Positions 16,032 to 28,915 of a stretch of DNA of 64,000 bases are shown one piece after another. Made by a program: the position numbers and the translations under genes. Under the pieces are notes generated by a model. It ran no database searches, was not told the DNA's origin, and worked only from the letters and a program-made list of their open reading frames with translations. The stretch's first letter is position 1, and each line of letters starts with the position of its first letter. Source of the stretch: Bacteroidia bacterium (GTDB lineage: Bacteria; Bacteroidota; Bacteroidia; UKL13-3); NCBI GenBank assembly GCA_021740845.1, contig JAIOYZ010000003.1, positions 124,001-188,000 of the forward strand, read 5' to 3'.

Positions 16032-16073
16032 ACATTTTGTTTTTACCTTTGTGACGAAAAATAATTTTTGAGA

Positions 16074-16694
16074 ATGTCAGAAGAAGTAAAGATTAAGATT
16101 CTCAATGGTGCAGAAGCGTTGTTCCTTAAATATGGTTTCAAAAGCATCACCATGGATGATATCGCGAGGGAATTAGGGATTTCTAAGAAAACCTTATACC
16201 AGTTTTTTGAGGATAAAATAAGTCTAGTAGACCAAACCGTGCTTAGGCATATTGAACATGAAGAAAATGCATGTTTTGAAATGTGTAAAAACATTAAAAA
16301 TCCTGTGGAATACATGTTACTTATTACTGAATCATTTAGTGACATTAAAAAACAGATTAACCAAACTATCCTTTTTGATTTAAAAAAGTATTTCAAAGAA
16401 ACATGGGACAAATTAAATCAATTTAGAATTGAATTTATTTTCAATCAAGTTTTGGAGAATCTCAAACAAGGAAAGGATCAAGGCTATTACCATGAAGATA
16501 TTAATGAGGTAATAACAGCTAGATTCTATATTCATTTAGTGGATTATTTAATCAATCCAGATAATGTAAGTTCCTCAGAATTTGAATTTAAAACCGTGCA
16601 TAATGAAATGATGCGTTACCATTTAAGGTCGATTTGCACAGAAAAAGGGATTAAATATTTACACAAAAGTACTATTTATCAAAATTTAAAATAA
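16074..16694 (+). CDS. TetR/AcrR family transcriptional regulator
   Basis: N-terminal HTH: KILNGAEALFLKYGFKSITMDDIARELGISKKTLYQFFEDKISLVD. ATG at 16074 preferred over the upstream TTG in the ORF track. Confidence 0.92.
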   Translation: MSEEVKIKILNGAEALFLKYGFKSITMDDIARELGISKKTLYQFFEDKISLVDQTVLRHIEHEENACFEMCKNIKNPVEYMLLITESFSDIKKQINQTILFDLKKYFKETWDKLNQFRIEFIFNQVLENLKQGKDQGYYHEDINEVITARFYIHLVDYLINPDNVSSSEFEFKTVHNEMMRYHLRSICTEKGIKYLHKSTIYQNLK

Positions 16695-16707: not shown

Positions 16708-18042
16708 ATGAATTCTAAAAACGGAATTTTGTTTTGTCTATTGATTCTTTCTTTTCAAATAGGCCATTCACAGCAAAGTCAACCGCAATCTTTTAGTATT
16801 AAAGAGGCTGTTGAATACGCAAAAAAGAATAACTATTCTCTCCAAAACAATAAGTTGGATGTAATATCGAGCCAGAAAAAGGTAAATGAAATTTTATCGA
16901 ATGGATTACCTCAAATTAGTGCATCTGCCAATGTTATTAATAATGTACAAATTCCTGTTCAAGTAATACCAAATTTTACGGGTCAAGGGCCAGAGTTTTT
17001 GGAACTAAAATTTGGTCGTCCATTTACGAGTAATATTACTGTAAGCGCCAATCAATTATTATTTGATGGAACGTTCTTCTTAGGAGTAAAAGCTTCCAAG
17101 GAATTTGTGAATTTAGCCAAACTAAATTTTTCAAGAAATGAAATTGAAACTGAAGTAAATGTTTCTAAAGCATATTATTTAGTGCTTTTATTGGAAGCAA
17201 ATGAAAAAATGATGCTAAAAAATATTGAGAGTTTAGAAAAAACTAAATCTGATGTAACTCAATTTTATAAGAACGGTTTTTCAGAAAAAATAGATGTCGA
17301 TAGATTAGCACTTCAGCTTTCGAACCTTACATTGCAAAAGGATAAAATTCACGACCAAAAGGAAGTTTCCAAAATGGTTTTAAAACTTCAAATGGGAATG
17401 TTAGTTTCTGATAGTATTATTTTAACCGATGATTTAGATAATTTATATGATGCTTCTAAACTTTCTGCAATTGACGATAAGGTAAGCTATTTGAACCGAG
17501 TTGAGTACAAGATGTTGCAACAACAATTATCATTGAATTACTTAGACAAAAAAAGATATTCAGCGGGGTATTTCCCTTCAATATTTGCCTTTGCTAATCA
17601 CGTTGAAAACGCTTTTGGAGATCAGTTTAGTGGTTTGTATAATCAATTGTATCCAGGTACGAGTATAGGGTTAAGTGCAACGATTCCTATTTTTGATGGT
17701 TTGAAAAAGAATGCCCAAACTCAGCAAGCAAAGATTGGAATAGCAAAAACTGAAAATGATATCAAAAATTTTGAGAATCTTTTAAACCAACAAGTTTATC
17801 AGGCAAAGGCTAGTTATTTAAGATCAAGCCAGCAACTTGAAATTCAAAAGGGAAACCTAAAATTAGCTCAAGAAATTTATGAAAAAATAGATTTAAAATA
17901 CAAGAATGGGGTTAGCTCTAGTTTAGAATTAACAACCGCCCAAACAGATTTAGAAAATGCCAGAACAAATTATCTAACTACTGTTTACGAATATTTTGTT
18001 GCAGAAATGGAATTGAAAAAGGCTTTAGGTCTAATTAAATAA
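16708..18042 (+). CDS. TolC family outer membrane efflux protein
   Basis: Signal peptide, SIKEAVEYAKKNNYSLQ, coiled-coil TolC architecture; position in RND operon. Confidence 0.9.
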   Translation: MNSKNGILFCLLILSFQIGHSQQSQPQSFSIKEAVEYAKKNNYSLQNNKLDVISSQKKVNEILSNGLPQISASANVINNVQIPVQVIPNFTGQGPEFLELKFGRPFTSNITVSANQLLFDGTFFLGVKASKEFVNLAKLNFSRNEIETEVNVSKAYYLVLLLEANEKMMLKNIESLEKTKSDVTQFYKNGFSEKIDVDRLALQLSNLTLQKDKIHDQKEVSKMVLKLQMGMLVSDSIILTDDLDNLYDASKLSAIDDKVSYLNRVEYKMLQQQLSLNYLDKKRYSAGYFPSIFAFANHVENAFGDQFSGLYNQLYPGTSIGLSATIPIFDGLKKNAQTQQAKIGIAKTENDIKNFENLLNQQVYQAKASYLRSSQQLEIQKGNLKLAQEIYEKIDLKYKNGVSSSLELTTAQTDLENARTNYLTTVYEYFVAEMELKKALGLIK

Positions 18043-18068: not shown

Positions 18069-19205
18069 ATGAAAAAAATAATTAATGGTTTAGTCTTGAT
18101 CCTATTTGTAGGAGTTATTGCTAGCTGCGGAGGTGACGCTTTGCAAAAGAAAAAGGATAAATTGGAAAAATTGAAGACAAAGCAAGCCGAAATAATTTCT
18201 GAAATTAAAACCATGGAAGAAGAAATTTTGGCCTTGGGTGATACCTCATCTAATAAAAATGAAAGAATGAAATATGTAGTGGTTACTCAGATCCAACGTA
18301 CAAATTTCAATCACTATATCGATGTTCAAGGAAGAGTAGATGGAGATCAAAATACTACCATTAGTGCAAGGGCAATGGGGCCAGTGGTTAAGGTATATGT
18401 AAAAAGCGGAGCTTCTGTTAAAAAAGACCAAATTCTTGCTGAATTGGATGCTGAAATAGTTAGAAGACAAATTGATGATTTGAAGGTTAGTTTAAATTTT
18501 GCAACCGATGTTTTTAATAAACAAAAAGCATTGTGGGAAAAGCAAGTTGGTACAGAAATTCAGTATTTGAGTGCAAAAAATAACATGGAATCTCTGCAGC
18601 AAAAATTGGCTACTCTAAATGAAAATTTGGACATGTATAAAATTAAATCACCAATTAATGGAACGGTTGACGAAGTGTTTGTGAAAATTGGTCAGAATAT
18701 TGCTCCAGGTGTGCCATGTTTTAGAGTAGTTAATTTCAATAACCTTAAGGCAAAAGCAGATGTTGCAGAAACATATGCAAGCAAAATTCATGAAGGAAAT
18801 CAAACCAAATTATTGTTTCCTGATTTAAATAATAGAGAATTAAATTCTACAATTTCATTTACATCAAGGGTAATTAACCAACAAAATAGAACATTTACAA
18901 TTGAAGCATATTTGCCTGCAGAAAAGGATTTCTTTCCAAACATGATTTGCGTTTTTAAAGTTATGGATTACCAAGCAAAAAATGCGATTGTAGTTCCAGT
19001 AAACACAATCCAAAAAACAGATGGTATTGCACACCTTATTGTTGCAGAAATGAAAAATGGTCGTCAAGTAGCTATTAAGAAAGAAGTTGTTGTTGGTCAA
19101 ATTTATAATGATAAAGCAGAAATATTATCTGGGTTATCTGAGGGTGATCAACTAATTACTACTGGTTTCCAAGATTTAAACGACAATGAATTGGTTAAGT
19201 ATTAA
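18069..19205 (+). CDS. Efflux RND transporter periplasmic adaptor (HlyD/MFP)
   Basis: Lipoprotein-like signal (VGVIASCGG), VKSGASVKKDQILAELD lipoyl-like motif, KSPINGTVDEVFVKIGQ. Confidence 0.92.
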   Translation: MKKIINGLVLILFVGVIASCGGDALQKKKDKLEKLKTKQAEIISEIKTMEEEILALGDTSSNKNERMKYVVVTQIQRTNFNHYIDVQGRVDGDQNTTISARAMGPVVKVYVKSGASVKKDQILAELDAEIVRRQIDDLKVSLNFATDVFNKQKALWEKQVGTEIQYLSAKNNMESLQQKLATLNENLDMYKIKSPINGTVDEVFVKIGQNIAPGVPCFRVVNFNNLKAKADVAETYASKIHEGNQTKLLFPDLNNRELNSTISFTSRVINQQNRTFTIEAYLPAEKDFFPNMICVFKVMDYQAKNAIVVPVNTIQKTDGIAHLIVAEMKNGRQVAIKKEVVVGQIYNDKAEILSGLSEGDQLITTGFQDLNDNELVKY

Positions 19206-19238: not shown

Positions 19239-22200
19239 ATGTTAGATAAAATAAAAGAATTTAAACCATCGAGCTGGGCAATTAATAATAAAACCAGCGT
19301 ATATATTATGACCATCATAATAACCTTAGCAGGTTTGATGAGTTATAATAGTTTACCCAAAGAACAATTCCCAGAAGTAGTTTTTCCTCAAATTTTGGTT
19401 AATACAATTTATGCTGGAACTTCTCCAAAGGATATGGAAAATTTGGTAACTAAACACATTGAAAAACAAGTTAAATCAATCAATGGTGTAAAGCAAGTTA
19501 CCAGTTCTTCAATTCAAGATTTCTCGATGATCAATATTGAGTTTAATACTGATGTTGATGTACCGGTTGCAAAACAAAGGGTGAAAGATGCGGTAGATAA
19601 GGCAAAGAAAGATTTGCCAAATGATTTAACGCGTGAACCTGAAGTAATTGATATTGATGTTTCCCAAATGCCTATCATGAATGTGCATCTTTCTGGTGAT
19701 TATCCTTTGGATAAATTAAAAGATTATGCAGATAATATGAAAGATAGGATTGAAGGTCTTAAGGAAATAACCCGCTGTGATATTGTTGGTGCTTTAGATC
19801 GTGAAATCCAGATTGATGTAGACATGTACAAGATGCAGGTTGCAGATGTTACCATGAGAGATATTGAGAATGCTGTTAAATATGAAAACATGACTATCTC
19901 TGGAGGCCAAATTAAGATGGATGGCCTTAAGCGTAGTATTAATGTTATCGGACAATACACAGAGGCAAACAAAATAGGAGATATTATTATTAGATCAGGA
20001 AGTGGGGCTACAATTTACCTTAAAGACATTGCAACAATTACGGATGGTTTTAAGGAAAAAGAAAGCTATGCTCGATTGGATCACGAAAATGTAGTTACCT
20101 TAAATGTAATTAAGAAAAGTGGGCAAAACCTGATTGACGCTTCCGATAAGATTAAGGAGATTACTAAGGAAATGGAGGATGGTCAGTTGCCACAAGGGTT
20201 AAAAGTTACAATAACGGGCGACCAATCAGATAAAACCAAAGTAACCTTAGATGATTTGATTAATACAATCATTATTGGATTTATGTTGGTGACTTTAATT
20301 CTCATGTTTTTCATGGGAACTACCAATGCCATATTTGTGGCTATGTCTGTGCCTCTTTCCATGTTTGTTGCCTTCCTGATAATGCCAGTAATTGGCTTTA
20401 CACTAAATATGATTGTTTTATTTTCATTCTTATTGGCCTTAGGAATAGTAGTAGATGATGCAATTGTAGTGATTGAGAATACACATAGGATATATGATAA
20501 TGGTAAAGTCCCAATTGTAAAGGCGGCTAAACTTGCGGCGGGTGAAGTATTTATGCCGGTATTATCTGGTACATTAACAACACTTGCACCTTTTATTCCA
20601 TTAGCATTTTGGCAAGGCGTAATTGGTAAATTTATGTTCTTTTTACCAATAACGCTTATCGTAACCCTATTGGCCTCCCTAGTTGTTGCCTATATTATTA
20701 ACCCAGTTTTTGCGGTTGATTTTATGAAACCTCATCATTTGGGAGAAGAAAAAAGAAAAATCACAAAGGGATTCAAAATCACCTCCATTGTATTTGGCGT
20801 AATCATCCTATTATCCTACCTAGCAGGTAATTTTGGCTTAGGTAATTTGGTATTAACTTTATATGGTTTATACTGTTTGAACCGATTCGTTTTACATGAG
20901 TTAATTGAAAAGTTTCAACAAAAAACTTGGCCATCAATTCAAGAGAAATATAAGAAGTTATTGGTTTGGATTTTAGTAGGTAGCAGGCCAATTTGGATTA
21001 TTATTGGAACCATTGTATTGTTCTTTTTATCTATTGGAATAACTATGGTAAGAAGTCCAAAAGTGGTATTCTTTCCTCAAAGCGATCCTAATTTCGTTTT
21101 TACTTATATTTCTTTACCAATAGGAACAGATCAAGTATATACAGATTCCATTACTCACATTGTTGAGGATAAAATCTACCAAGTTGTTGGTGATACCAAT
21201 CCTATTGTTGAATCCGTAATTTCAAATGTTGCTGTTGGAGCAAGTAACCCACAAAGTTTTGATTTTAGTGTTAGTCCACATTTAGGTAAAGTAACAGTAG
21301 CATTTGTGCCATTTGGCGATAGAAAAGGAGCTTCAACGATTGAATATTTGGATAAAATCAGAGAGGCCGTTAAAGGGATTCCTGGGGCGGAAATTACAGT
21401 TGAACAAGAGCAAGGTGGACCACCAACTGGTAAACCAATTAATATTGAAATTACAGGAGATGAATTTGATCAATTGACTTTAATTTCAAAGGATTTAAAA
21501 AGATATTTAGATTCTTTAGGCATCCCAGGTATAGAGGAATTGAAATCTGATTTACAAACTAACAAACCAGAAATTGTTATTGAAGTAGATCGTGAAAGAG
21601 CAAATAGGGAAGGAATTTCAACTGCCGTAATTGGTAAGGAACTTCGAGATGCAATTTTTGGAGCTGAAGTTTCAAAATTCAAAGATGCTAATGATGATTA
21701 TCCAATTCAATTGCGTTATGCTTTTGACCAAAGAAATAATATCAATGCCTTAATGAATTTAAAAATCACCTATAGAGATATGAATATGGGTGGAATGATT
21801 CGCCAAATTCCATTATCATCTGTTGCTAAGTTAAGTTATGGCAATACATTTGGAGGTATTAAACGCAAGAATCAAAAGCGAATGGTTACTATTTCTTCAA
21901 ATGTACTTAGCGGATATAATGCAAATGAAATAGTAGGAAAAATTCAAAAAGCTGTAAAAAGATTCCCTTTGCCAAATGATATGATGGTTTCTATGACAGG
22001 TGAGCAGGAGAAACAGCAAGAAACTGGAGCATTTTTGGGCAATGCCATGCTAATTTCATTTGGGTTAATATTCTTGATTTTGGTTACTCAATTCAATTCT
22101 ATTTCGAAACCGTTAATTATTTTTGTGGAAATATTCTTTAGTATTATCGGGGTATTGTTGGGATTGTCTATTTTTAATATGTCGATTTCTATTGTAATGA

Positions 22201-22619
22201 CGGGAATCGGTGTGATTGCACTTGCTGGGATTGTGGTAAGAAATGGAATATTACTTGTTGAATTTACAGATCTGCTACTTGAAGAAGGTATGGAAATGAA
22301 GGAGGCAATTATAGAGGCAGGAAAAACTAGGATGACCCCAGTTATCTTAACAGCATCCGCAACAATTTTAGGCTTGATCCCATTGGCAATAGGATTAAAT
22401 ATTGATTTTGTTTCCCTATTTAGTGAGTTAAATCCTCATATTCACCTTGGTGGAGACAACGTAGCCTTTTGGGGACCTTTGAGCTGGACAATGATTTTTG
22501 GTTTAGGATTTGCAACTTTTTTAACTTTGATATTGGTACCAGTTATGTTACTTTTGTCGAATAGATTGAAGATAAAATTTGGAATTCCATTGGTTAAAAC
22601 CCATAAGGAATCAAATTAA
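19239..22619 (+). CDS. Efflux RND transporter permease (AcrB/MdtB-like)
   Basis: 1126 aa; LPKEQFPEVVFPQI, LALGIVVDDAIVVIENTHR, GIGVIALAGIVVRNGILLVEF. Confidence 0.94.
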   Translation: MLDKIKEFKPSSWAINNKTSVYIMTIIITLAGLMSYNSLPKEQFPEVVFPQILVNTIYAGTSPKDMENLVTKHIEKQVKSINGVKQVTSSSIQDFSMINIEFNTDVDVPVAKQRVKDAVDKAKKDLPNDLTREPEVIDIDVSQMPIMNVHLSGDYPLDKLKDYADNMKDRIEGLKEITRCDIVGALDREIQIDVDMYKMQVADVTMRDIENAVKYENMTISGGQIKMDGLKRSINVIGQYTEANKIGDIIIRSGSGATIYLKDIATITDGFKEKESYARLDHENVVTLNVIKKSGQNLIDASDKIKEITKEMEDGQLPQGLKVTITGDQSDKTKVTLDDLINTIIIGFMLVTLILMFFMGTTNAIFVAMSVPLSMFVAFLIMPVIGFTLNMIVLFSFLLALGIVVDDAIVVIENTHRIYDNGKVPIVKAAKLAAGEVFMPVLSGTLTTLAPFIPLAFWQGVIGKFMFFLPITLIVTLLASLVVAYIINPVFAVDFMKPHHLGEEKRKITKGFKITSIVFGVIILLSYLAGNFGLGNLVLTLYGLYCLNRFVLHELIEKFQQKTWPSIQEKYKKLLVWILVGSRPIWIIIGTIVLFFLSIGITMVRSPKVVFFPQSDPNFVFTYISLPIGTDQVYTDSITHIVEDKIYQVVGDTNPIVESVISNVAVGASNPQSFDFSVSPHLGKVTVAFVPFGDRKGASTIEYLDKIREAVKGIPGAEITVEQEQGGPPTGKPINIEITGDEFDQLTLISKDLKRYLDSLGIPGIEELKSDLQTNKPEIVIEVDRERANREGISTAVIGKELRDAIFGAEVSKFKDANDDYPIQLRYAFDQRNNINALMNLKITYRDMNMGGMIRQIPLSSVAKLSYGNTFGGIKRKNQKRMVTISSNVLSGYNANEIVGKIQKAVKRFPLPNDMMVSMTGEQEKQQETGAFLGNAMLISFGLIFLILVTQFNSISKPLIIFVEIFFSIIGVLLGLSIFNMSISIVMTGIGVIALAGIVVRNGILLVEFTDLLLEEGMEMKEAIIEAGKTRMTPVILTASATILGLIPLAIGLNIDFVSLFSELNPHIHLGGDNVAFWGPLSWTMIFGLGFATFLTLILVPVMLLLSNRLKIKFGIPLVKTHKESN

Positions 22620-22621
22620 AG

Positions 22622-22696
22622 ATAATTGCATCTAGGGGTAGAGTGCAATTTGTTTCATAGGCTAAAGCGGGGTCTGGGCAACCGGCCCCGTTTTTT
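22622..22696 (+). ncRNA. Tandem structured RNA element, copy 1
   Basis: AATTGCATCTA(22624-22634)-GGGG-TAGA(g)TGCAATT(22639-22650) stem-loop; linker; terminator CGGGG-(t)-CTGG-GCAA-CCGG-CCCCG (22668-22690) then TTTTTT. Confidence 0.8.
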
Positions 22697-22800
22697 ACCA
22701 AATTATGAAGCTCTTTTTTTTGGATAGTTCTGAATTTGATATAAATTGCATGGCGAAAAAGAAATTTGTTAAGTGTTAATTAAACATTTAATCATAAAGG

Positions 22801-22874
22801 TAATTGCATCTAGGGGTAGAGTGCAATTTGTTTCATAGGCTAAAGCGGGGTCTGGGTAACCAGCCCCGTTTTTT
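22801..22874 (+). ncRNA. Tandem structured RNA element, copy 2
   Basis: Near-identical to copy 1 with two compatible changes: loop GCAA->GTAA and stem CCGG->CCAG (wobble to Watson-Crick); followed by TTTTTT. Confidence 0.8.
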
Positions 22875-22949
22875 ACCACCCAATGTTCTTAAATTGATAA
22901 CCCATTTTGGGGATTGGTATTCCAAGTTATTGGTTTACAATCATAAAGA

Positions 22950-23024
22950 TAATTGCATCTAGGGGTAGAGTGCAATTTGTTTCATAGGCTAAAGCGGGGT
23001 CTGGGTAACCAGCCCCGTTTTTTT
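22950..23024 (+). ncRNA. Tandem structured RNA element, copy 3
   Basis: Same core as copy 2 (AATTGCATCTAGGGGTAGAGTGCAATT...CGGGGTCTGGGTAACCAGCCCCG) then TTTTTTT. Confidence 0.8.
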
Positions 23025-23174: not shown

Positions 23175-24794
<1,620 letters not shown>

Positions 24795-25143: not shown

Positions 25144-25920
25144 TCAAATAATACTGGCAAATTTGTCAAGAGCTTTTTGAAAAATTTCCTTTTTTCTTCT
25201 AGAAATTTCCACCTCTGTCCCATCTACCATAACCACCAATCCTCCTTCTCCTTTAATATATTTTTTTATGTATTTGAGGTTGATCAAATGTGAATGATGA
25301 ACTCTACAAAATCCATAGTCTATTAACAATTCGTCGTATTCTTTAAGGGTTTTAGATACCAAAATTGATTTTTCTTCATTTTTCAAGTGAAACCTAGTAT
25401 AGTTAGCATCACTTTCACAACGAATTATTTCTTCAATTGGAACAAATAGAGCCCCCTCGAATGTTGGCAAAGATAATTTATAATTTTGTTTATTAATCGA
25501 TTTTAAATTTTCTAATAAATTATTTATTTGGAGTTGCGGTTGATGTTCTGATTTTTGCCTTTTTTCAATAGTTCTATCGATGGCATGGTTAAGTTCATCG
25601 CTATCAATTGGCTTAAGTAAATAATCAATTGCACTAAATTTAATTGCTTTAATAGCATAAGAATCGTAAGCAGTAGTGAAAATCACATCGAAAGTCCTTT
25701 CAGGAAGTTCTGCAAGTAAATCGAAGCCATTTTTAAATGGCATTTCTATGTCTAGGAGAACTAAATCAGGGGGAGTTTTTTTTATCAAAGCAACAGCATC
25801 ATCTACATTAGGGGCTTCCCCAATTAATTCTGTGGTTTTGATTTGGGTTAAAAGTGCTTTAAGCGCATTTCTTCCTCTAGACTCGTCTTCAACAATTATA
25901 ACACGTAATTTATTAGCCAT
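25144..25920 (-). CDS. LytTR family response regulator
   Basis: REC domain (VIIVEDESRGRNALKALL, DLVLLDIEMPFKNGFDLL) and LytTR domain (GFCRVHHSHLINLKYIKKYIKGEGG). Confidence 0.93.
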   Translation of the reverse strand: MANKLRVIIVEDESRGRNALKALLTQIKTTELIGEAPNVDDAVALIKKTPPDLVLLDIEMPFKNGFDLLAELPERTFDVIFTTAYDSYAIKAIKFSAIDYLLKPIDSDELNHAIDRTIEKRQKSEHQPQLQINNLLENLKSINKQNYKLSLPTFEGALFVPIEEIIRCESDANYTRFHLKNEEKSILVSKTLKEYDELLIDYGFCRVHHSHLINLKYIKKYIKGEGGLVVMVDGTEVEISRRKKEIFQKALDKFASII

Positions 25921-28915
25921 TCAATGTTGGAATTTGCATGATTACCTTTGTACCGCAAGCTACATTATTTTCATCAAATTTATCTACAATTGAAATTTTT
26001 GGTTTGGATCCAAATAGTTTTTGTAAAGATTGGATTCTATCATCTGAAATTTTAGAGGCTTTGGATTGGTGTAGTGATCTTTTATTCTTCTTTATTTCCA
26101 TAGCCACTGCCCTGCCTACTCCATTATCTTCAATCTCTACTTTAATCATTTGGTCATTAATTTTTTGCATTTTAATGGACAAGGTTTTTTTACCTGTTTT
26201 ATATTGTAAACCATGCCAAATTGCATTTTCAATATGTGGCTGGATTAATAGTGTTGGTATAAGTGATTCGCGGTCAATTTCTGGATCGATTTCAAACGAG
26301 TAGTCAAAGGAATTATTCATCCTTAATGCTTCCAATTCTGTATATAATTTAAGAAACTCTATTTTAGAAAAGATTGTAACGAAAGTTTGTTCTGAAATAT
26401 CTAGAATTAGACGAATTAATCGAGCGAATTTGCTTAAGTATTTAGCTGCTAAATTACCTTCATTGTTTAACACAAAATCTTGAATGGAATTAAGAGAATT
26501 GAATATGAAATGTGGATTCATTTGAGCTCTTAATGCTTTTAATTCCAATTCTGCTATCATCCTACTTTGTTTTCCATTTTCTTGTTCTTCCTTTATGGCA
26601 TTTTGAATTCTATTATAAATAAAGAAAGCAACAGAAGCCGCACATAGGATAATTAATAATAATCTAAACCAAGTTTGCTGATAGTAGGTTGGCACCACAG
26701 TGAAATATACCCTGCCTTCTTTACTACTTAATTTACCATCTGGGTTTTTTGCTTTTACCTTAAATATATAGTCTCCTTGAGGCAATTGTCCAAAACTGGC
26801 AAATCTCCTATCGCCAATTTCTGTCCAATCTTTTTGTAGGCCTTCAAGTTGGTAATAATAGGTGTGATTTCCTTTTAGGTAAAAATCCAGGGCAGCAAAA
26901 TCAAAAGAGATATAATTTTTTGAAATTGGAACTTGATAATAATCTGCATAGGGTACTTTTTGATTAAATATGGAAAGACCTTTTATTACAATATTGCAAT
27001 CGTTTGTATCATTTTTGATCTTTTTTGGATCAAAATAATTAATGCCATTTATGCCACCTAAGTATATTATTCCATTAGATGTTATTTTTGATGCTGATTC
27101 AATAAATTCACTTCCTTGAAGTCCATCATGTAAATCATAATTTTTTACTTCAAAAGTTTTAGTATTAATGGCAGCAATACCTTTATTAGTAGAAACCCAG
27201 CATTGGCTTTCGTCCTGACTTAAAGTTACTGTATAAATTTGACCATTTGCTAAGCCATTAGATTTAGTAATGGAGGTTGTTTTTCCATTTGGAGAAATTA
27301 TAAATAATCCTTCTCCTGCAGTGCCAACATAAATGTTTTTTTGCCGGTCAATTTTCACCGTGCTTACCATGGGTTGTTTGGGGTTTTCAGAAAGTTTAAT
27401 CCAGGTAATATCTTTAGTTTTTTTATTGAATAAATACAATCCTTTCATGGTGGAGACAAACAATTCATTTTCATTTTTTTTGCATACGCTTCTAATGTTT
27501 TCTGAACCAAATTTAGAATTGCCTATTCCATAATATTCAATTGTTTGGCCAGATTTTCTGTCAAATAAGAACAAGCCATCGTCGCCACCCATCCAATAGG
27601 TTTGTTCTCCTTCTGGTAAAATGAATTTGATATCACTTTCAAAATTTTTCACATCATTTTTTGTGCTTACAAATCCAACCTTATCATCAAAATAAGAATA
27701 ACTATAAAGACCTTTTTCGGTGCCAATTAAATATGAATTCGGGTTATTCAATTCCTTTAAAATGCAATTTCCTATTATTCCGGTTTGAACCCATTTAGTA
27801 ATTTCTTTTGTGGATGGGTTGTAAATGCCTAAATACCCTGTGCTGTTTTGAAAAATGATATGACCATCATTGGCTTCTTCAAATGAAATTATTTCTTTAC
27901 ATAAATTGTATTTAGCAGAAACTAAAGGTGAAACCAAATTAAATTTATGTCTATTTGGATTGAATAAATTTAAGCCACCTAACTTGGTACCAACCCATAA
28001 ATTTCCTTGTTTATCTTTTAATAATGCTGTTATATAAGATTGCGAAAGAGAATAATAATTATCTTCTTGATGTGTTAATATTTTGGAACTCCCATTGGTT
28101 TCAATACAAATCAAACCGGTAGTTGTACCTAAAAAGAACTTGTTCTTATACAATATGAAAGATGACCCATTTAAATTGTAAGGCATCGAAAAAGATTTCT
28201 TTATTTGAACTTCACCATTTTCGATATTACCATGGTGGAAAAAACCATCGCCCTCAATCCAAGATAATTTGTTTTCGCTTTCTACTGCAAAATGTCTGAT
28301 AAACGAATTGGCATAATATTTTAATTTAATAAGTTTATTGTTGAAAGGGAAATAGTAGTAAAATGCATCTACACTACTAATAAGTAGCTTTCCATTATTA
28401 ATTTTCTTAATACAAGTTATGGGTTCATGAATGCCAATATTTTCAATTTTTTTTGAAGAAAAATCATATTTCCATAGGCCATTTTCACTAGTGATTAGAA
28501 TGCTTCCTTCGTTTGCAAAAAGTGACTTAGGTGATTTAATTAGATTGTTATTTATTGAGATTTTTTTTCTACCAAGGTTTTTAGTGTCAATAAGACTAAT
28601 GTGATCAGAGTACATTACTGCCAAGAAGTTTGAATTTCCATTTATAGAACGCACGTAATTATTTATTTCAGATTCTTGACCAGAATCGTCCATTGGTTCA
28701 AATGTATATCCATCGTAGCGAACTAGGCCATTTTCTGTTCCAATCCAAATATATGACTCCCTATCTTGGTATAAAGCGGTAATGCTAATTTGGTTTAAAC
28801 CATTTTGTTCATCTAATCGTTCAAATGCAATATTCTGCGCATGAATTGTAGCTCCAAGGCAAATAAATAAGAATAGAAGAAGTATTTTTGAACGCAAGAT
28901 TAAATAAATTAGCAA
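25913..28915 (-). CDS. Two-component sensor with beta-propeller/Y_Y_Y input and LytS-type histidine kinase domain
   Basis: Repeated propeller units (YIWIGTENGLVRYDG, LWVGTKLGGLNLF), YYYQLEGLQKDWTEIGDRRFASFGQLPQGDYIFKVKAKN (Y_Y_Y), LKALRAQMNPHFIFNSLNSIQDFV. Confidence 0.93.
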   Translation of the reverse strand: MLIYLILRSKILLLFLFICLGATIHAQNIAFERLDEQNGLNQISITALYQDRESYIWIGTENGLVRYDGYTFEPMDDSGQESEINNYVRSINGNSNFLAVMYSDHISLIDTKNLGRKKISINNNLIKSPKSLFANEGSILITSENGLWKYDFSSKKIENIGIHEPITCIKKINNGKLLISSVDAFYYYFPFNNKLIKLKYYANSFIRHFAVESENKLSWIEGDGFFHHGNIENGEVQIKKSFSMPYNLNGSSFILYKNKFFLGTTTGLICIETNGSSKILTHQEDNYYSLSQSYITALLKDKQGNLWVGTKLGGLNLFNPNRHKFNLVSPLVSAKYNLCKEIISFEEANDGHIIFQNSTGYLGIYNPSTKEITKWVQTGIIGNCILKELNNPNSYLIGTEKGLYSYSYFDDKVGFVSTKNDVKNFESDIKFILPEGEQTYWMGGDDGLFLFDRKSGQTIEYYGIGNSKFGSENIRSVCKKNENELFVSTMKGLYLFNKKTKDITWIKLSENPKQPMVSTVKIDRQKNIYVGTAGEGLFIISPNGKTTSITKSNGLANGQIYTVTLSQDESQCWVSTNKGIAAINTKTFEVKNYDLHDGLQGSEFIESASKITSNGIIYLGGINGINYFDPKKIKNDTNDCNIVIKGLSIFNQKVPYADYYQVPISKNYISFDFAALDFYLKGNHTYYYQLEGLQKDWTEIGDRRFASFGQLPQGDYIFKVKAKNPDGKLSSKEGRVYFTVVPTYYQQTWFRLLLIILCAASVAFFIYNRIQNAIKEEQENGKQSRMIAELELKALRAQMNPHFIFNSLNSIQDFVLNNEGNLAAKYLSKFARLIRLILDISEQTFVTIFSKIEFLKLYTELEALRMNNSFDYSFEIDPEIDRESLIPTLLIQPHIENAIWHGLQYKTGKKTLSIKMQKINDQMIKVEIEDNGVGRAVAMEIKKNKRSLHQSKASKISDDRIQSLQKLFGSKPKISIVDKFDENNVACGTKVIMQIPTLNG

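Follow-up and report, generated by a model that had tools for sequence, protein, structure and literature searches.

The 3' end of a multidrug-efflux operon in the window, by which we mean the whole 64-kb stretch of DNA that was analysed, carries three copies of an RNA element of about 75 nt. Sequence comparisons suggest that this element probably represents a new family of small-RNA genes acting in trans. That it is a real RNA family under selection is close to certain, and selection on an RNA, as argued in an earlier note on this DNA, is borne out by covariation, a syntenic home and promoter-like boxes. A fixed loop and linker are combined with variable stems, full terminators and boxes abutting the stem, and a free RNA acting in trans therefore fits best; we infer its transcription, its trans action, its pairing with mRNAs and its link to pump expression. 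The copies lie on the + strand at 22625-22697, 22803-22875 and 22952-23024, and each joins a hairpin to an intrinsic terminator through an 18-nt single-stranded linker:

22625-22649 (+), copy 1: hairpin with a 7-bp lower stem and the loop CTAGGGGTAGA at 22632-22642
22650-22667 (+), copy 1: single-stranded linker TTGTTTCATAGGCTAAAG, the core of which (GTTTCATAGGCTA) is near-invariant in 71 copies
22668-22696 (+), copy 1: intrinsic terminator, stem-loop and T6, based on fold and covariation
22803-22827, 22828-22845, 22846-22868 and 22869-22874 (+), copy 2: hairpin, linker, terminator and T run
22952-22976, 22977-22994, 22995-23017 and 23018-23024 (+), copy 3: hairpin, linker, terminator and T run

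The earlier note had described three near-identical elements starting at 22623, 22801 and 22950 and separated by unrelated spacers. The motif TAATTGCA starts at exactly these positions, and a repeat search assigns the copies to a single 85-nt repeat family with three members (92% and 99% identity to the reference copy; start-to-start spacing of 178 and 149 nt) and finds no repeat in the spacers between them. The proposed succession of hairpin, linker and terminator is recovered in the fold of each copy, with predicted folding energies of -29.6 to -30.3 kcal/mol and z-scores of -3.4, -4.3 and -4.2 for copies 1, 2 and 3, respectively; 0 of 200 shuffles were equally stable.

The base pairs were assessed in an alignment of 71 copies (60 distinct sequences), in which 16 pairs were tested. 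Covariation supports the lower seven pairs of hairpin 1 and nine pairs of the terminator stem, and the terminators are conserved among the copies by the same measure. Compensatory change in both stems of homologues had been proposed as a check on the RNA, and it is seen at all 16 pairs, each having both partners replaced in at least one copy. Standard pairs occupy 97.5% of cells as compared to 70.8% after shuffling, and the covariation score is 0.763 versus 0.241 for shuffled alignments and 0.074-0.147 with partners slid by 1-3 columns, figures that lean towards the covariance model, to which the alignment was fitted, and that come from related, non-independent sequences. Across the 71 copies, next to no variation occurs in the loop GRGUAGA and the linker GUUUCAUAGGCUA. 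Among the 60 distinct sequences, U and A in the loop and UUCAUA in the linker show little or no variation, in contrast to the stems, which vary at every position. In dispersed copies away from the efflux genes, stems are highly divergent and loop and linker are kept (CCTGAAAAG/CTTTTCAGG, CTTGGAAGG/CCTTTCAAG, TTAGTGT/GCACTAA). Because these stems differ so strongly, the pairing is plain by eye.

Not all of the originally proposed structure holds. Hairpin 1 had been read as an 11-bp stem with a GGGG loop, but a GGGG tetraloop closed by CUA/UAG is not supported, as the apical pairs are not maintained across copies: 85.6% of cells are paired versus 83.8% after shuffling, and the A-U apical pair is absent in 18 of the 60 distinct sequences. 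Judged from the alignment, it is apparently the conserved open apical loop, rather than a GGGG tetraloop, that matters. The GNRA cap ascribed to the terminator loop is frequent (GCAA, GTAA, GAAA), yet not universal among genera. A pseudoknot between loop and linker was considered and rejected: CCUA/UAGG could pair in genus g1, but by eye other genera change the loop side with the linker unchanged.

The family is new to Rfam, while small RNAs with such features are already known as a kind. No named family had been recognised initially, and in Rfam 15 there is indeed no match across the whole 64-kb window at gathering thresholds; with relaxed settings, the matches around the copies score well under their cut-offs and mostly fall on the opposite strand. 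Rfam searches of the loci around six homologous copies returned only the unrelated DUF805 RNA (RF03081), a known Rfam motif found at L124:891-960 (+) in a g6 genome. A limited literature search yielded no description of the element.

A DNA search detected the element in 44 of 147 genomes. With a first covariance model built from 23 sequences, it was found in 50 of the 64 sampled genomes of the window's family (also the whole order as sampled), representing 9 of 14 genera. Among 395 sampled Bacteroidia there are 12 carriers, all within this family, and the covariance search revealed no carrier among the sampled Bacteroidia outside it. A broader model (R2) built from the 71 copies gives the same distribution; clear copies in the family score about 40 bits or more, and the best hit outside scores 35 bits. 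The weak class-wide R2 hits outside the family were discarded, as their number is about that expected by chance. Among named records, the loop-linker pattern occurs in uncultured Bacteroidota MAGs and in the complete genome of Bacteroidetes bacterium UKL13-3, which originates from a freshwater-lake cyanobacterial co-culture (PMC5248499). For family members without the RNA, the examined stretches downstream of RND relatives contain no match. In genus g13, a hairpin ACAGGG-GTAAGTTGG-CCCTGT followed by TTGTTTCTCATATAATAGG and a terminator lies just after the RND stop (L167, genome G039), and a corresponding hairpin GCAGAG-...-CTCTGT is located near the end of locus L168. Judging by position and form, this g13 hairpin is possibly a diverged homologue beyond the model's reach.

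In the window, the efflux cluster runs from a TetR regulator through TolC-like protein, membrane-fusion protein and RND permease to the RNA copies:

16068-16694 (+): TetR-family regulator (PF00440), with which the efflux cluster begins
16708-18042 (+): TolC-like outer-membrane efflux protein (PF02321)
18069-19205 (+): membrane-fusion protein, HlyD/AcrA-type (PF16576)
19239-22619 (+): AcrB-type RND permease (PF00873), with the RNA following its stop codon in 9/9 genera
23175-24794 (+): ABC-F-like ATPase, downstream and not a conserved neighbour in other genera

Copy 1 starts about 6 nt past the end of the RND permease gene (22619). The main copy follows one and the same RND gene, on that gene's strand, in each of the nine genera, mostly 6 to about 260 nt past the stop. 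The element is thus 3' UTR-associated, that is, a conserved RNA at an mRNA 3' end, on the same strand and ending at a terminator. This position, and the fact that some copies have no obvious promoter of their own, would agree with a cis-acting 3' UTR element that only terminates or stabilises the RND mRNA, or with a processing product devoid of trans function. However, for termination alone a near-invariant loop and linker would be superfluous, each tandem copy has its own full terminator, and dispersed copies outside the RND setting keep loop and linker, half of them with start boxes abutting the stem. We therefore consider a purely cis-acting role improbable.

The arrangement of hairpin, linker and terminator can also resemble an attenuator, and the ABC-F-like gene of the window comes next on the RNA's strand, as would be expected if the element were a riboswitch or attenuator acting in cis as the leader of that gene. 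Yet the genes downstream of the main copy vary among genera (ABC-F-like, ArsC-like (PF03960), S8 peptidase (PF00082), opposite-strand genes, and others), and the RNA is therefore not a leader: the conserved downstream gene typical of a riboswitch or attenuator is missing, an alternative anti-terminator was not observed, and terminators in tandem would shut the gene off. Of all explanations, we assign the lowest probability to this one. Beyond the ABC-F-like gene, at 25144-28915 (-), the window contains a LytTR response regulator and a large propeller sensor kinase (Reg_prop, Y_Y_Y, His_kinase), neighbours that are conserved in much of genus g1.

Most carrier genomes hold one or two copies. Tandem near-identical copies are found in G000 and G003 (three each) and in G002, G009, G012, G017, G028 and G038 (two each), and these form sibling arrays of at least two near-identical adjacent elements with shared exposed segments. 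The three copies of G003 are arranged at nearly the spacing of the window. When aligned in order, the spacers of G003 and the window share 58% and 56% identity, only slightly more than the 54% and 49% obtained after shuffling. Terminator stems are alike within a genome, CTGG/CCRG being the form of the window and TTCGG/CCGA that of G003. The view that the array is not a simple recent duplication is supported, with one amendment: in the simplest reading, the three near-identical copies may represent an old triplication homogenised by gene conversion instead of three recent duplications. The spacer evidence for such homogenisation is modest.

About 15 further copies reside at sites away from the RND gene, several of them beside unrelated genes, and in these the stems are swapped while loop, linker and terminator are kept. 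In G015 (L150-L154), one RND-linked and four dispersed copies have different stems, and all keep loop and linker. In genus g7 (L127, L129, L130), a variant copy, ATTCAAGTTAGGGGTAGCTTGAGT...TTTCATAGGTTAAAGG, lies directly 3' of an Hsp20-family gene in three genomes, with the assignment (PF00011) tested for one of the three; this setting would be a second stress-related 3' UTR for the RNA. Copies of genus g5 (L117, L119-L122) have the loop GGGGTAAAG with the linker CATATACTAA instead of GGGGTAGAG with CATAGGCTAA. The presence of several copies at dispersed positions in some genomes (five clear copies in all in G015) might point to a mobile or repetitive DNA element spread by copying. We regard this as very unlikely, given that the main copy keeps its syntenic place and its orientation in nine genera, the stems of dispersed copies differ with compensation, and the plasmids searched contain no match. 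Viral contigs matching loop and linker gave weak hits only and were dismissed, since the matching stretch resembles a conserved phage sequence and lacks the hairpins.

The housekeeping promoter of Bacteroidota reads TTTG/TANNTTTG, and its -7 box covers -12 to -5 (PMC6847099); this numbering was used to predict the starts of the RNA copies. Of the 14 dispersed copies with enough upstream sequence for a box search, seven carry a TAnnTTTG whose end is 1-7 nt from the stem, as against a mean of 0.27 and a maximum of 3 in 200 shuffled runs. In six of these seven copies the box predicts a start 0-3 nt ahead of the stem, and in the seventh (L141) one inside it. For main copies, TAnnTTTG or TAnnTTGC occurs 25-75 nt upstream in 35 of 56 cases (shuffled mean 4.4, maximum 11), a count that overstates the case because RND-proximal boxes lie in RND codons, where the protein may constrain them, and because the genomes are related. 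These boxes often have a TTG 22 nt further upstream, and the search found no main copy with a box as close to the stem as in dispersed copies. Two candidates are located in the window:

22549-22556 (+): candidate -7 box TACTTTTG of copy 1, with TTG at 22527-22529; inside the RND coding sequence, so that the protein alone could constrain it
22742-22749 (+): candidate -7 box TAAATTGC of copy 2, with TTG at 22720-22722, 22 nt upstream; predicted leader of about 49 nt

Copy 3 of the window and the copies of genus g5 show no clear box within about 75 nt upstream. A small hairpin, unrelated in sequence, occurs in the predicted leaders of many main copies (mean z -1.1) and is suggestive only.

As a trans-acting small RNA, the functional unit would comprise about 75 nt, with a 5' hairpin that displays the loop, the unpaired linker, and a terminator that would both end the RNA and protect its 3' end. 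The stems might serve as interchangeable scaffolds, whereas loop and linker would contact the partner, most likely several mRNAs through base pairing. Transcription of the main RNA could start at a promoter of its own, the RNA could arise from the pump mRNA through read-through and processing, or both routes could contribute. If it is made from the efflux locus by such routes, its level would be tied to pump expression, and tandem copies would raise the dose. Bacteroides is without obvious Hfq and ProQ homologues, and the sRNA GibS acts there by pairing (PMC7366714).

Target pairing was tested in 1.9 Mb (about 74%) of the same-genus genome G004. The complement of the linker contains AUGAAAC, a common gene start, and pairing of the linker at starts in G004 shows an apparent excess over shuffled linkers. 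This excess is not start-specific: strong linker pairing is found in 5.7% of start regions, 8.4% of gene interiors and 5.9% of stops. Start-codon pairing was rejected because starts score below gene interiors and the same as stops in the covered part of G004. Perfect linker complements are rare. The one attractive candidate target, an outer-membrane-protein gene of G004 that has GCCTATGAAA at its start, was also rejected; among the relatives listed, only G008 has the site near the start of the orthologue.

With no enrichment at starts in the covered part of G004 and a candidate site that is not generally conserved among the relatives listed, a protein partner is a live alternative. Loop and linker would then be the recognition site of a protein that tandem copies sequester, in the manner of CsrB/RsmZ or 6S RNA. 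Their conservation almost to the letter across genera is consistent with such a site, as is the search in G004 and the listed relatives, which found no shared target site. Moreover, loop and linker appear to have changed together in several g5 copies (GUAA for GUAG and CAUAUAC for CAUAGGC), as a bipartite site tracking one partner might. On the other hand, a candidate protein is lacking, the RNA is limited to one family, most genomes have only one or two copies, and extended conserved seeds are also known in pairing sRNAs. A protein-binding or titrating RNA is thus clearly the less likely option, though ahead of a purely cis-acting role. Much the same holds for a joint reading in which loop and linker form one bipartite site for an RNA-binding protein or chaperone and copies from the efflux locus act as a dose signal, in a lineage-specific RNA with free scaffold stems and a phylum often without Hfq and ProQ; we consider it doubtful.

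Only a small number of Bacteroidota small RNAs have been characterised, and at least in Bacteroides, riboregulation appears to do without an obvious Hfq or ProQ. The present family provides a ready covariance model based on 71 copies, separates important (loop, linker) from unimportant (stem sequence) nucleotides, and is invariably tied to a multidrug-efflux cluster. Where promoter boxes abut the stem in dispersed copies, they would define a minimal transcript, and the question of the binding partner is directly testable by bait.

GibS of Bacteroides thetaiotaomicron is about 145 nt long with a seed in its unpaired 5' part (PMC7366714). Both GibS and the present putative sRNA are intergenic in Bacteroidota and combine a terminator with a long conserved stretch of single strand; the present RNA differs in length, seed placement and locus, the two being set apart by description only (PMC7366714). 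Rfp18 of Flavobacterium psychrophilum, another conserved structured sRNA newly described in Bacteroidota, is described as widely conserved in Flavobacterium and has its pairing region in a third stem-loop (PMC9723704). In contrast to that description, the present RNA is confined to its own family in the class sample.

LhrC of Listeria is a multicopy sibling sRNA. The neisserial NgncR_162/163 are likewise sibling sRNAs in tandem multicopy arrangement (PMC9973317). Adjacent near-identical copies and exposed conserved segments are shared with both systems, whereas the present RNA has a different sequence, is linked to RND efflux and has copies that are apparently homogenised. CpxQ, OppZ and CarZ are 3' UTR-associated or 3' UTR-derived sRNAs of enterobacteria and Vibrio. 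We know of no sequence relation between them and the present RNA, which resembles them in its position at an operon 3' end and in the unpaired conserved stretch beside the terminator hairpin. In contrast to these sRNAs, it is also found as apparently separate genes with abutting promoter-like boxes, and it belongs to a Bacteroidota lineage.
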